Positions 1,298-47,453 of a stretch of DNA of 64,000 nucleotides are shown here, piece by piece; position 1 is the first letter of the stretch; every line of letters begins with the position of its first letter. The stretch lies in contig NZ_JAPEPC010000001.1 in NCBI RefSeq assembly GCF_026340465.1, forward strand, positions 868,001 through 932,000, written 5' to 3'. Source of the DNA: Streptomyces sp. NBC_01306 (GTDB lineage: Bacteria; Actinomycetota; Actinomycetes; Streptomycetales; Streptomycetaceae). A program made the translations under genes and the position numbers. A model generated the notes under the pieces. The model was not told where the DNA came from and did no database searches. It saw only the letters and a list, made by a program, of their open reading frames with translations.

Positions 1298-2320
1298 CTA
1301 CTGCGCCGCGTCGGCAACCAGCGCGGCCAGCTCGGCGGCCGGCATGGAGCCCGCTGGGCGCCGCTCGCGCGCGAAGGTGTTGGCCACCCGCTGGAGTACG
1401 TCGTTCACCGGGGTCGGCACTCCGTGCAGCCGGCCGAGCAGGGCGATCTCGCCGTTGAGGAAGTCGGCCTCGATGGTGCCCGTGCCCCGGCTGAGGCTCT
1501 GCCAGGAGGAACCGCCGCCTCGCGGCCGCCCCTCGGCCGGCAGCTGGGTGATCTTGTCGCCGCGCACCCGCTGCTGCTCCTCGGCGCTCGCGGCCTCGAT
1601 CCCGGCTGCCGCGTAGACGGCGCGCCCCTCGGCCTCCGCCTGCTGGAGCAGCTCCGCCATGATGGCGTCCGCCGCGGGGTCCGTGCCGTGGATTCCGCAG
1701 GCCGCCTGGAGTGAATTGACCAGGTTCGAGAGGAGTTTGCCGTACTTCCAGCGCATCACGTCGGGAACGACCGGCGCCTCGAACGGAGCCTTCTCCAGAT
1801 CCGCCGAGATCTGCCGGGCGGTACGGTCCGTGCCCGCCGGATAGCGGCCGATGTGCAGCATCCCGGAGAGCGGGGAACCGGCCGCGGCGACGGAGCCCGG
1901 CTCCAGGAAGGTCGCGGGCAGCCAGACGCACATGCCGTACACCCGGCGGAAGCTGCGCAGCGCGAGGCGTTCGCTCTCCACGCCGTTCTGCGCACAGACC
2001 AGCGGGAGCACTTCGGCGGCCGTCGCGCCGGTGCCGGCCACCGGCCGCGGGCCCCAGGCGTCGAGGGCCGCGATGCTGTCCTGCGTCTTGACCGTCAGGA
2101 CCAGGACGTCATCGGGGCGCAGTTCCACCGCGGCGGGGCCGTCGGCGACCGGCAGTGCGAGTGTGCGGGTGCCCTCCGGGGTCGCGATCCGCAGCCCGCC
2201 GTCCCGGAGTGCCTCGTAGTGCGCCCCACGGGCCACCAGAACCACTTCGCTGCCGCTCTCGGACAGCCGCCCGCCGATGATGCCGCCGACGGCGCCGGCT
2301 CCAATGATGATGTAGCGCAT
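1298..2320 (-). CDS. panE: 2-dehydropantoate 2-reductase (ketopantoate reductase) family protein
   Basis: A 340-residue protein of the ApbA/PanE family, which reduces 2-ketopantoate to pantoate with NADPH in pantothenate synthesis. The N-terminus MRYIIIGAGAVGGIIGGRL carries the GxGxxG Rossmann dinucleotide loop. AQNGVE near residue 110 supplies the conserved Asn, and MRWKYGKLLSNLVNS in the middle supplies the conserved Lys of the C-terminal helical domain. The ATG at 2320 begins right at the Rossmann strand, which fixes the start. Streptomyces often carry several paralogues, so this could reduce another 2-oxo acid. No other pantothenate gene lies nearby. Upstream is a repeat-filled interval shared with the divergent small gene at 2588. 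Confidence 0.85.
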   Translation of the reverse strand: MRYIIIGAGAVGGIIGGRLSESGSEVVLVARGAHYEALRDGGLRIATPEGTRTLALPVADGPAAVELRPDDVLVLTVKTQDSIAALDAWGPRPVAGTGATAAEVLPLVCAQNGVESERLALRSFRRVYGMCVWLPATFLEPGSVAAAGSPLSGMLHIGRYPAGTDRTARQISADLEKAPFEAPVVPDVMRWKYGKLLSNLVNSLQAACGIHGTDPAADAIMAELLQQAEAEGRAVYAAAGIEAASAEEQQRVRGDKITQLPAEGRPRGGGSSWQSLSRGTGTIEADFLNGEIALLGRLHGVPTPVNDVLQRVANTFARERRPAGSMPAAELAALVADAAQ

Positions 2321-41138: not shown

Positions 41139-41864
41139 GTGAGCAGCAACGACAGCCCTTTCCGCGCGGAGCCGACGGCACGCGACGAGGCCCCGCAGTT
41201 CGTCCTTCCGCTGGTGGTTCACATCGAGAAGGCCGAACCCCCGGCCCGTACGGACGCGCTGGAGACGGCAGCTCGTGCGGTGCTCGTGATGCTGTCGGAC
41301 GAACGCTCGCTGGGTGACGGCGAGTGGGCGCAGGCGATGGCGGACTGGCAGGACGCCCGGATCCGCAAGGTCGTACGGCGGGCGCGCGGCGCCGAGTGGC
41401 GGAAGGCTTCGGCGCTGCCGGGCATCACCGTCACCGGGTCCGCGGCCGAGGTACGGGTCTTCCCTCCGGTGCCGCTGGACGGCTGGCCGAAGGAGCTGGC
41501 GAAGCTCCAGGTCAGCGGCACCGACCTGGACGATCCCGAGCTGCTGCCCGCGCCGGACCGCACCGCGCCGGTCATCTGGCTCAACCCTCAGCTGGACATG
41601 TCGGCAGGCAAGTCGATGGCGCAGACCGGCCATGGCGCACAGCTCGCCTGGTGGGAGCTTTCGGACGCCGAGCGGGACGCGTGGCGGGCCGCCGGGTTCC
41701 CGCTGTCGGTGCGGACGGCGGCTCCTGGGCACTGGGGCGAACTGACCGCGAGCGGGCTGCCGGTCGTGCATGACGCGGGGTTCACCGAGATCGCGCCCGG
41801 GGAGACCGTCGCGGTCGAAGGGGGCAGCCGCTTCTGCCCGCTCCCGCGGGGACGACGGCCGTAG
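41139..41864 (+). CDS. Pth2-like peptidyl-tRNA hydrolase
   Basis: A 241-residue protein starting at GTG 41139. [20 protein letters not shown], then [18 protein letters not shown]-like text in the N-terminal half, precede [20 protein letters not shown], the best match to the Pth2 core (K...AAQ..HA: here the Lys and the Gln-x-x-His-Gly). Pth2 enzymes release peptidyl-tRNA and recycle tRNA; the family is archaeal/eukaryotic but occurs in Actinobacteria. A longer N-terminal half (about 130 residues) than canonical Pth2 (about 120 total) is present. It is divergent from AIM24 and 170 bp upstream of the MNIO gene. Confidence 0.75.
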
Positions 41865-42033
41865 GCGGGCCGCCGGGGAACCGGGCTCCGGTACGCGATC
41901 GCGACGCTCGTGTGGGGCGTGCCCGCCGGGAACCTCAAATCAAGCTCTGAACGTCCCATCGGGTGGATTCACCGCGGCCCCGCGGGGTCATCACCCCCGC
42001 ACGCGCCGCGATTGCGGCGGCGGAGGGGGAACC

Positions 42034-43464
42034 ATGGGAACCATCGAGAAGCTGGGCACCGGTATCGGATGGCGGCCGGAGATCGCCACGGCGGTGGAGG
42101 AGCTGCCGGGCATCGACTGGGTCGAGGTGGTCGCGGAGAACCTCTGCCCCAGCCATCTCCCGGACTCTCTGCTGCGGCTGCGCGAGCGCGGGGTGACGGT
42201 GGTTCCGCACGGTGTCTCACTGGGCGTCGGCGGCGCCGAGCGCCCGGCTGCCGACCGGCTCGCCGCGCTGGCCGAGCGGGCCCTCCTGCTGGAGTCGCCG
42301 CTGGTCACGGAGCACATCGCCTTCGTCAGGGCCGGCGGCCCGCTCACCGCGTCCCCCGGTCTGGAGGCCGGCCATCTGCTGCCGGTCCCGCGCACCTGGG
42401 ACGCGCTGCATGTGCTGTGCGAGAACGTCAGGGCCGCCCAGGACGCCCTGCCGGTCCCGCTCGCCCTGGAGAACATCGCCGCGCTGATCTCCTGGCCCGA
42501 CGAGGAGCTGACGGAGGGGCAGTTCCTGGCGGAACTGGTGGAGCGCACGGGCGTACGGCTGCTGATCGACGTGGCCAACCTCCACACCAACCACGTGAAC
42601 CGCGGCGAGGACCCCGCGGCCGCCCTGGACGAACTCCCGGTGGAGGCCATCGCGTACGTCCATGTCGCGGGCGGTGTGGAGAAGGACGGCGTCTGGCACG
42701 ACACCCATGCCCACCCGGTGACCGCGCCGGTCCTCGACGTGCTGGCACAGCTGCGGGACCGGGTGGACCCGCCGGGGGTGCTGCTGGAGCGGGACGACGA
42801 CTTCCCGCCCGCGGCCGAGCTGGCCGGTGAGCTGTCCGCGATACGGGAAACCCTGGCAGCCCGGGAGGCTGTGACTGCCAGGGGGGCTGTGACCGTCAGG
42901 GAGGCTGTGACTGCCAGGGGGGCTGTGACCGTCAGGGGGGCTGTGACCGTCGGAGAGTCCGCCACTGCCCGGGAGGCTGCGGCTGTCGAAGAAACGGTCA
43001 CCGTCGGAGAGTCCACCACCGCCCGGGGGACCGCCCCCGCATCCACCACCGGCCCCCGGCAGCGGCTCGCCCTCGCCGAGACCGCGCTGCTCTCCGCCCT
43101 GGTCGCGGGCACCCCTTCGCCCGAGGGCTTCGACACCCGGCGGCTCGGTGTGCAGAGCCGTGCGCTGGCCGCCAAGCGCGCCGATGTCGTGGCGCAGGTG
43201 GCCCCCGAGCTGCCCGCCCTGCTCGGCGCCGGGTACCGGACCGCTTTCCTGGCGTACGCCAAGTCCCGCCCGATGAGCGGTGGTTACCGGCGCGACGCGC
43301 TCGACTTCGCGGAACAGCTGCTCCGCGCCGGGCTCCCCGCCGACGCCGCGGCCCGGCGCCGGCTCGCCCTGTGGTGGCAGGAGCGGTCGGCCCCGCGCCG
43401 GCCGACCAGGGCGGCCAGGTTCGCCCGTGCGGCCCGGACCCGGTTCGGCCGCGCGTACCGGTGA
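42034..43464 (+). CDS. DUF692/MNIO protein with hexapeptide-repeat linker and C-terminal extension
   Basis: A 476-residue protein. Residues 1-260 are a DUF692 barrel, the multinuclear non-heme iron oxidases (MNIO) that modify Cys or other residues of RiPP peptides. Candidate metal ligands are visible at His59 ([12 protein letters not shown]), His94 (VTEHIAFV), Glu146 (LENIAALI), Asp179 ([11 protein letters not shown]), His210 (YVHVAGG), Asp223 and His225 ([12 protein letters not shown]). Residues 276-329 are a nine-unit 6-residue repeat (A/V-R-G/E-A-V-T type) coded by 18-bp tandem DNA repeats. Residues about 335-476 ([39 protein letters not shown]) form an extra domain, not part of the barrel. 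ATG 42034 follows GGAGGGGG. No precursor peptide or partner is adjacent. Confidence 0.85.
42859..43020. repeat. Nine 18-bp tandem repeats in frame in the MNIO gene
   Basis: Units start GCC or GTC and run without a gap from 42859 to 43020. Five early units are nearly identical (GCCAGGGGGGCTGTGACC and variants); later ones diverge. The 18-bp length keeps the frame, so copy-number changes would lengthen or shorten the linker without a frameshift. Confidence 0.85.
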
Positions 43465-43600
43465 CTCCCGGCCCGTCCGCCACGGGTCGGCGGGGTCATT
43501 GACACCGACACCGCCGAACGGTCCTTTACAACGTCAGCCGCCGGACGAATTATCCCTTTTATTCAGTAGCTGCAGGAAGCAGCTGGACGAAGGGGTCCCG

Positions 43601-45289: not shown

Positions 45290-46027
45290 TCAGGCGAGCC
45301 CGGCCACCAGGTCGGCCACCGACTTGCGCCGGCCGGTGAAGAAGGGAACCTCTTCGCGTACGTGCATCCGCGTCTCGGAGCCGCGCAGATGACGCATCAG
45401 GTCGACGATGCGGTACAGCTCGTCGGCCTCGAAGGCCAGCAGCCACTCGTAGTCGCCGAGCGAGAACGACGCAACCGTGTTGGCGCGCACGTCCGGGAAG
45501 CCACGGGCCATCTTGCCGTGCTCGGCGAGCATCCTGCGGCGGTCCTCGTCGGCCAGCAGGTACCAGTCGTAGGAGCGCACGAAGGGATACACCGAGACGT
45601 AGTCCCGGGGGGTCTCGTCGGCGAGGAACGCCGGAATGTGCGACTTGTTGAACTCGGCGGGGCGGTGCAGCGCCATGTTCGACCAGACCGGGTCGAGGGC
45701 GCGGCCGAGACGGGTGCGGCGGAAGAGGTTGTACGCGGTCTGGAGCTCGTCCGAGGTCTCCGCGTGCCACCAGATCATCACGTCGGCGTCGGCGCGCAGC
45801 CCGGAGACGTCGTACGTGCCGCGGACGGTGATGTCCTTGGCGGCGAGCTGGTCGAACAGCTCCTGGACCTCACCGGCCACCGCGGTGCGGTCGGTGTCGC
45901 CGGGGAGCACGTCGCGCAGCTTGAAGACGGACCACAGCGTGTAGCGCACGACCTCGTTGAGGTCCTTGGCCTTCTTGCCCGCGTTCGGGGCCTTGGGGGA
46001 CGTCACGGTCTCCGGAGCATCAGTCAT
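45290..46027 (-). CDS. hemQ: Coproheme decarboxylase (chlorite dismutase family)
   Basis: A 245-residue HemQ, which converts coproheme III to heme b in the Gram-positive heme route. [18 protein letters not shown]-type text opens the fold, [20 protein letters not shown] holds the catalytic Tyr, and [20 protein letters not shown] holds the proximal His. [20 protein letters not shown] and [19 protein letters not shown] follow. The length and motifs fit the actinobacterial subgroup. Start ATG 46027. It directly follows the oxidase gene (4 bp) and converges on the peptidase gene. The operon oxidase-hemQ with nearby hemE fits one pathway. Confidence 0.95.
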
Positions 46028-46031
46028 GCCG

Positions 46032-47453
46032 CTATTCTCCCGCGCCGCCGGTGGTGCCCGACGCCAGGGTTGCTGTGATCTCCTTCGCAGCCCGCTCGGC
46101 ACTGGCGACACAGGCCGGAATGCCCACTCCGTCGTAGGCCGCGCCGCAGATCCGCAGGCCGGGCAGCGCGGCCACCGTGTCCCGTACCCGGGCCACCCGG
46201 GCGAGGTGGCCGACGGGGTACTGGGGCAGTCCGCCGATCCACCGGGTCACCTCGGTGGCGACCGGCTTCGCGGTGAGCCCGACGGCCTCGCCCAGGTCGC
46301 GCAGCGAGAGATCCACCAAGTCGGCGTCCTCGCGGTGCAGATGCTCCTCGTCGCCGTAGCGGCCGAGCGAGGTCCGCAGCACGACGAGCTCCGGGTCGGC
46401 GTCGGACCAGGCCCACTTGCGGCTGGAGAAGGTGGACGCCTTGATGGAGTGGCCGTCCACGGGCGGTACGAGAAATCCCGTGCCGTCGGGGAGGTTCAGC
46501 TCCGTACGGCGGAAGGCCAGGGTGACGAGCGACATCGAGGCGTACTCGACGGCGGCCAGCTCGGCGGAGGCGGCGGGCGCCTCGTCGGCCAGCAGCGCGG
46601 AGGCCGCCCAGGCCGGTACGGCGAGCACCACGGCGTCGGCCTCGATGGGGCGGCCACCGTCCTGCCCGCCGGTGCGGATCAGCCAGCCGTCCGCGGTGCG
46701 CCGCAGCTCCAGCGCGGGCCGGTGCAGCAGGACTTCGCCGCCCCGGGCGCGGACCGCGTCGGCCACGGCGGGCGGCAGGGTGCCGATGCCCCCGTCCAGT
46801 CCCATGAAGACCGGGCCCGACGCGGGGGTGACGCGCTGCTGGAGCGAGCGCACGGCGGCGCCGAGCGTGGGGTGGGTGCGGGCGGCCTCGTAGAGCGCGG
46901 GGACCGCGGCGCGCATCGAGGTGCGGTAGACGTCGCCCGCGTAGACCCCGCCGAGCAGCGGCTCGACGAGCCGGTCGACGACCTCGCGGCCCATCCGGCC
47001 GGCCACGTACTCGCCGAGTGCGATGTCCTCGCCGATCTCGGCGGGCGGCAGTTCGGCGTCCTGGCCGATCCGGCGCAGCCCCTCGTCCGAGAGCACACCG
47101 CCGAGCCGGCCCGCGTCGGCCGGTACGCCCATGACGTGGCCGGTGGGCATCGGGGTCAGCGCGCCCCTGTTCCAGAGGGCGGCGCCGCTGGTGGCGGGCG
47201 GCTGGAGCGCGTCGCCCAGACCGGCCTCACGCGCGAGCGCGACCGCCTCGGGGCGCCGGGCGAGCATCGACTCGGCGCCGAGGTCGACCCGTACGCCTTC
47301 GATCTCGCCCGTGTGGAGCTTGCCGCCGACCCGGCCGGTGCCCTCCAGCACCGTCACCCGTGCCCCGCCGCCGGTCAGCCGGAGCGCTGCCGCGAGACCC
47401 GAGATCCCGCCTCCGATGACGACGACATGAGCCGTACGCGTGTCCGCATTCAT
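46032..47453 (-). CDS. hemY: Coproporphyrinogen/protoporphyrinogen III oxidase (HemY type)
   Basis: A 473-residue FAD enzyme. The dinucleotide-binding loop is [17 protein letters not shown] at residue 10, and [17 protein letters not shown] follows. [20 protein letters not shown] and [19 protein letters not shown] and [22 protein letters not shown] are the substrate/FAD regions of the HemY group. In organisms with HemQ, the oxidase works on coproporphyrinogen III (also named CgoX). ATG 47453 is used. It is 4 bp upstream of hemQ on the same strand and divergent from the flavoprotein at 47662. Confidence 0.95.

Follow-up and report, generated by a model that had tools for sequence, protein, structure and literature searches.

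The window, a stretch of 64,000 nucleotides from the genome of Streptomyces sp. NBC_01306, carries a gene in which an MNIO (DUF692) barrel, a repetitive linker and a further helical domain follow one another in the same reading frame (Table 1). MNIO enzymes perform unusual peptide chemistry and usually consist of two proteins with a neighbouring precursor. The fusion gene is the only match to PF05114 in the 8.38 Mb genome, and 136 bp separate it from a downstream gene for a TAP-like hydrolase. Neither a separate partner gene nor a small Cys-rich ORF is seen directly beside it, as an earlier note on this DNA had already observed. Further downstream (45290-47453, minus strand) lie genes of the chlorite dismutase family (HemQ-like) and the amine oxidoreductase family (HemG-like); the pair is kept downstream in the loci of most relatives, so that the MNIO locus adjoins probable haem synthesis genes.

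Table 1. Coordinates of the features discussed, in positions of the window
Feature	Position	Strand	Basis
Pth2-like gene, 241 aa, one Cys, resembling adjamnio-II	41139..41864	+	PF01981 (6.3e-5, 23.6 bits, cut-off 23)
Conserved upstream element GGAACCTCAAAT-N4-CTCTGAACGTC, possible promoter/operator of the fusion gene	41929..41960 (core 41931-41951)	+	conservation
Fusion gene of MNIO and probable partner, 476 aa	42034..43464	+	ORF; frame and coordinates confirmed
MNIO (DUF692) TIM barrel, residues 1-274, nine TglH-type iron ligands	42034..42855	+	PF05114, TglH fold, invariant ligands
Hexad-repeat linker, residues 275-333	42856..43032	+	TRF, lag-6 identity; 295-333 predicted disordered
C-terminal helical domain, residues 337-476, probable fused MNIO partner (DUF2063-like, PME-type 2-like)	43042..43461	+	six helices; separate gene elsewhere; TglI/MbnC
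Gap between fusion gene and TAP-like hydrolase gene	43465..43600	+	site of one or two TIGR04222 genes in many relatives

The barrel and its linker

The PF05114 profile covers residues 9-274 of the protein almost completely (profile positions 2-262 of 263, E = 1.7e-77), and the solved proteins nearest to the barrel by sequence are TglH (2.2e-21), 3bww (2.5e-19) and MbnB (4.1e-5). AlphaFold2 modelled the full chain of 476 residues with a mean pLDDT of 85.7 and a pTM of 0.80, and the closest solved fold to this model is likewise TglH (8hi7_B; Z 27.8, 2.8 Å over 270 residues). The iron ligands of TglH are His71, His107, Glu151, Asp184, Asn187, His216, Asp229, His231 and Glu258 (PMC10880893). Alignments with TglH and 3bww map all nine onto the barrel, as H59, H94, E146, D179, N182, H210, D223, H225 and E252, and all nine positions are invariant across 77 aligned sequences (alignment A2). 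The histidine and acidic ligands named in the earlier note are all present, together with Asn182 and Glu252, which it had missed. Judged by its sequence, the barrel is a complete MNIO domain with the full set of ligands. Among the NCBIfam models, those of the bufferin and HvfB maturases come closest, yet both fall well short of their cut-offs (BufB 178 bits against 310, HvfB 142 bits against 360), and no DUF2282 bufferin exceeds the cut-off in this genome (best E 0.896).

The nine in-frame repeats of six residues described earlier have a real period: shifting the linker against itself by six residues leaves 26 of 53 positions identical and shifting it by twelve leaves 24 of 47, whereas the remaining lags from 2 to 14 each yield 2-7 matches, and TRF scores the repeats at 136-172 with a threshold of 50. 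On visual inspection, some five of the units copy one another closely and four have degenerated. Residues 295-333 have a pLDDT below 50 in the AlphaFold2 model. We rejected a hexapeptide-repeat acyltransferase (left-handed beta-helix) as an identity for the repeats, given that Pfam and NCBIfam hits of this kind reach only E 0.012 or weaker and that the repeats are mostly predicted to be disordered.

The sister species, G023, with a barrel 97% identical, has a protein of 467 residues instead of 476 and keeps some of the hexads, fewer and interrupted, so that the repeats are not absent from every close relative. L079, the next relative, has an unrelated linker. Across the 105 proteins in which both landmarks were found, a rough measure of linker length gives 5 to 233 residues with a median of 36, and dN is maximal in the linker in all ten pairs compared. 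Because the linker varies in length and has the highest dN, the earlier guess of an expandable linker was right; because the hexads are not kept, there is no support for them as a feature of the system. They look like a local accident, a lineage-specific trait of a fast-evolving linker.

The C-terminal domain as a probable partner

The approximately 137 residues behind the linker are predicted to fold, with block means of pLDDT of 84-97 over residues 341-450 and 62-77 in the last 26 residues. Homologues of the domain occur both within the genus and outside it. A disordered tail without homologues, which would have spoken against the earlier interpretation, is therefore not what is found. When the domain alone was compared by VIA-align with 123 solved chains, only TglI (two entries, Z 6.3 and 6.0) and MbnC (Z 5.0) reached a Z of at least 5, the next chain scoring 4.5; by the program's own note, values of 5-6.3 are attainable by chance among helical domains and lie below the level called safe. 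The likeness to TglI is greatest with its first 156 residues. Foldseek gave no significant match for the domain (TglI E 6.0-8.8, MbnC 8.3).

Among the sequence signals, DUF2063 is the commonest weak Pfam match to homologues of the C-terminal domain, always under the Pfam cut-off: it matches 16 of 69 members in alignment A3 (best 0.0027), 4 of 36 in A1 (best 6.5e-4, beside three matches to Hera_DD with a best value of 8e-4) and 3 of 19 in A5 (best 8.2e-4), and in the split partner of G035 it spans positions 3-82 of 83 at 0.0014. PME-type 1 partners carry DUF2063 over the cut-off, a level which the family's best value does not reach, and PME-type 2 partners are defined as lacking the DUF2063 signature (PMC12452194). 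Of 246 genomes from the phylum, only three contain a DUF2063 match. The comparison of alignments A1 and A3 by hhalign sets the C-terminal domain family against itself and is uninformative. No curated family in Pfam or NCBIfam matches the domain, and its profiles found nothing relevant among PDB sequences (best 0.58 for A1, 0.13 for A5). In the search against HvfC/DUF2063 or RRE-like domains that the earlier note had proposed, homologues show the weak DUF2063 signal, but the window's own copy has no DUF2063 match, and no RRE is seen in the fused domain. Stand-alone partners of some families, at five loci (L198, L200, L202, L204, L206), have, by eye, extra C-terminal residues that are possibly a remnant RRE-like part; the Streptomyces fusion seems to be without them.

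Gene order is more telling. The C-terminal domain is present in all 36 loci of our set of relatives with this kind of MNIO, fused to the barrel in 33 and encoded separately in three (G018, G035 and G037; loci L057, L073 and L075), where its ORF overlaps or just follows the MNIO stop. Streptomyces loci account for 35 of the set, 33 of them fused, and a further congener (G327) has the split arrangement. In a class-wide draw the domain profile matches 61 of 296 genomes, from which 20 further loci were picked, 19 of them from other families. Here the domain forms a separate ORF in 17 (at L205 it was found by a scan without filters) and lies within the MNIO ORF in three, all of family f20; at one of the f20 loci, L196, the barrel is spread over three frames. 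A tree rooted at distant paralogues places first G018 and then G035 at the base, with modest support, and G037 on a long and unsure branch; a second tree of 106 loci was rooted on these three and says nothing on the branching order of the split types. The separate state in 17 of the 20 further loci and the early branching of the split types suggest that a separate partner is probably the older state, and that fusion probably arose in Streptomyces and perhaps again in f20.

We interpret the C-terminal domain as very probably an MNIO partner that has been fused in, mainly because of this gene order; the weak signals of structure and sequence point in the same direction. The suggestion that the extra domain may be a fused partner thereby becomes a probable one, and the structure prediction that had been called for returned a folded domain of six helices.

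Neighbouring genes, upstream element and selection

The arrangement adjamnio-II - MNIO - TIGR04222 is listed in PMC12452194, which also proposes that certain TIGR04222 membrane proteins serve as MNIO substrates through their Cys-rich tails. The gene directly before the MNIO is Pth-like and resembles adjamnio-II in its place, its 241 residues and its single Cys (published range 233-256 aa, one Cys; PMC12452194). It is likened here to the published description, which names PF01195, while the gene in the window matches PF01981. In the sister species about 3 kb with LysR-like and NmrA-like genes (by eye) lie between the Pth2-like gene and the MNIO (L062), which are adjacent in the window.

In contrast to the published arrangement, no TIGR04222 gene follows the MNIO at this locus, and the genome contains none at E 0.001, the best values of the profile searches being 0.26 and 0.13. 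A search of the genome for an unlinked substrate by family, profile and pattern found none, and a DUF2063 protein is likewise absent from it (best 0.5). Among the 36 loci of the relatives set, a TIGR04222 gene beside the MNIO has a Cys/Gly/Ser tail in 15 and is tail-less in 17 (including G014, cut by a contig end, and G009, where it lies almost 6 kb away), with states assigned by hand at a threshold of at least five Cys in the last 60 residues. The remaining four have none, namely this genome (G000), G013, G023 and G032, the last cut by a contig end. In G013 the A4 profile, used in the genome searches for TIGR04222, matches at 6.4e-5 the C-terminal part only of a separate 841-aa frame. For the best 80 loci by nearness of the C-terminal domain, with a threshold of four Cys in the last 70 residues, 59 are Cys-tailed, 13 tail-less and eight without TIGR04222, some of these cut by contig ends. 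The 20 further loci include 13 with a TIGR04222 protein of at least three Cys in the last 70 residues, the threshold used for them, and 11 at four.

A DUF4142 gene is another frequent neighbour of the MNIO in Streptomyces, before or after it (for example at L047, 5624-6433, 2.8e-18; at L050, 5481-6266, 2.8e-21; also at L064 and L072), and some loci have two. It is missing from this locus, and the genome has one match elsewhere.

The core of the upstream element, AACCTCAAAT-N4-CTCTGAA, occurs with at most three mismatches before 112 of 116 MNIO starts, perfectly before 98; its median distance to the start codon is 95 bp. The exceptions, where it is not found, are the three split-type genes of this set and L150, whose start codon is possibly miscalled. 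This genome has one copy at up to three mismatches, at the MNIO. A search of five genomes revealed a second perfect copy in G013 and a second copy with two mismatches in G007, all other matches having three; the second copies (L245, about 1501-1521, minus strand; L246, about 1501-1521) lie near a gene that reads as glyoxylate carboligase-like from its ORF and share downstream sequence. As a regulon search of these five genomes, the element pointed to no substrate. Rfam gave chance-level hits far under the cut-off for positions 41860-42060, so that no known RNA accounts for the element. We take GGAAC in front of the core and CGTC behind it to resemble a promoter of the ECF sigma-factor type, and the conserved interior suggests an operator, or promoter and operator both.

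The loss of TIGR04222 appears to have left selection on the enzyme in place. This genome, G023 and L079 form a starred clade, lying among species most of which carry the Cys tail, in which the hydrolase gene follows the MNIO without TIGR04222 between them; the absence is genome-wide for the first two and refers to the locus for L079. As all three members lack an adjoining TIGR04222 gene, the loss is probably older than their split. Between this genome and G023, dN/dS is 0.08 for the barrel and 0.14 for the C-terminal domain. Towards L079 it is 0.15-0.16 and 0.18-0.25, and in seven other congener pairs 0.06-0.16 and 0.07-0.38, respectively. Measured in this way, both parts are under purifying selection despite the loss. 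A slight relaxation of the barrel towards L079 is possible, because, of those seven pairs, the two in which a Cys-tailed neighbour is certainly retained (G004/G015 and G005/G019) each give 0.09 for the barrel. On the 106-locus tree the Cys tail is gained or lost at least eight times, with four of these changes forced by starred branches; it is a quick tree in which nearly half of the forks are weak. Two barrels of the relatives set are identical to named Streptomyces loci (G004 to L083, G029 to L096). The MNIO is found in 35 of 36 congeners, in one as a contig-edge fragment alone, and is missing from G008; the class-wide draw contains three congeners (G139, G284, G335) without a match to the C-terminal domain. 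The enzyme is thus dispensable, yet it does not look like a decaying leftover.

A single-chain enzyme and its substrate

We consider it likely that the gene encodes a single-chain MNIO holoenzyme, with its partner fused in, which acts on a substrate other than a linked TIGR04222 protein. With two or three bound irons and O2, the barrel would oxidise a peptide or protein residue. On its variable and disordered linker, the C-terminal domain would replace the separate partner of the TglI, MbnC or HvfC type, docking on the barrel, helping to shape the active cavity and presenting the substrate. In other actinobacteria the Cys-tailed TIGR04222 membrane protein, the MNIO and the partner are often separate genes; in most Streptomyces the partner is joined to the MNIO, and the lineage of this genome would then have dropped its TIGR04222 neighbours while keeping the enzyme under purifying selection. 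The substrate is predicted to be encoded elsewhere in this genome or to be something other than a TIGR04222 protein.

Of known systems, TglH/TglI of Pseudomonas syringae, which makes 3-thiaglutamate, is similar in barrel fold and in all nine iron ligands. It consists of two proteins with a C-terminal RRE in TglI (PMC10880893), whereas here a single chain is tethered by a linker, no RRE is seen and no precursor lies beside the gene. Partners of PME-type 2 or with DUF2063 (NGO1945, TglI class) resemble the C-terminal domain as helical domains of the DUF2063 kind encoded with an MNIO, but here the domain is fused C-terminally to the enzyme and the DUF2063 match stays below the cut-off. Enzyme class, partner class and locus type had all been described before. 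What is new is the occurrence as one chain, the wide distribution of this form in the genus and the fact that it persists where TIGR04222 is missing, for none of which we found a report; a fusion of MNIO and partner is mentioned neither in the accessible part of PMC12452194 nor in any report retrieved by a targeted literature search. The earlier proposal of an undescribed peptide-modification system therefore holds for the fused form and not for the locus type, which PMC12452194 had published. The S. coelicolor orthologue of the fusion gene is presumably SCO6045. In a transcriptome study (PMC4991794), SCO6045 appears as a hypothetical protein that is induced.

That the Cys tail is not the target at all, the enzyme acting instead on a conserved membrane or cell-wall-associated protein or on a small molecule with the TIGR04222 and DUF4142 proteins as co-workers, we regard as rather unlikely. 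The retention of the MNIO in nearly all congeners while its neighbours change and the Cys tail comes and goes would fit such a role, and characterised MNIOs are known that modify residues other than Cys (PMC13174530); several others do act on Cys (PMC13174530), however, and the Cys-tailed neighbour in 13 of the 20 further loci recurs outside the genus too.

It is more doubtful still that the Cys-tailed TIGR04222 protein is the only substrate and the MNIO of this genome an orphan relic which has not yet decayed. The frequency of Cys-tailed neighbours in both locus sets, with none left here, and the barrel dN/dS towards L079, slightly above that of the pairs keeping such a neighbour, are what this reading would expect. 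Against it, the L079 values lie within the range of the seven other pairs, and the barrel is at its low value between this genome and G023, both of which are without TIGR04222. A large clade moreover keeps the fused MNIO beside a TIGR04222 paralogue without Cys tail, and searches of two genomes of this clade (G002 and G003) gave no other strong TIGR04222 match. Purifying selection in genomes without TIGR04222 makes it unlikely that the Cys-tailed protein is the sole substrate. We find it quite improbable that the C-terminal domain is an unrelated helical domain, for instance a regulatory or localising one, joined by chance and no partner: the weak fold scores and the lack of an RRE or a curated family match would allow it, but in distant families the domain is encoded by a separate neighbouring gene as partners are, its top structural matches are TglI and MbnC, and DUF2063 is its commonest weak match by sequence.

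It is conceivable, though we advance it tentatively, that in most Streptomyces a one-chain MNIO modifies an unlinked protein or peptide, the Cys-tailed TIGR04222 protein being a side substrate, dispensable and repeatedly outlived by the enzyme. Should this be true, an oxidative protein modification that is widespread in Streptomyces would have been missed, because the gene of its target does not lie beside that of the enzyme. An MNIO that naturally forms one chain, as in most of the Streptomyces genomes examined, would lend itself to expression, and whether the TIGR04222 tails are the target at all could be tested cleanly in strains from which the suspected substrate has been lost.
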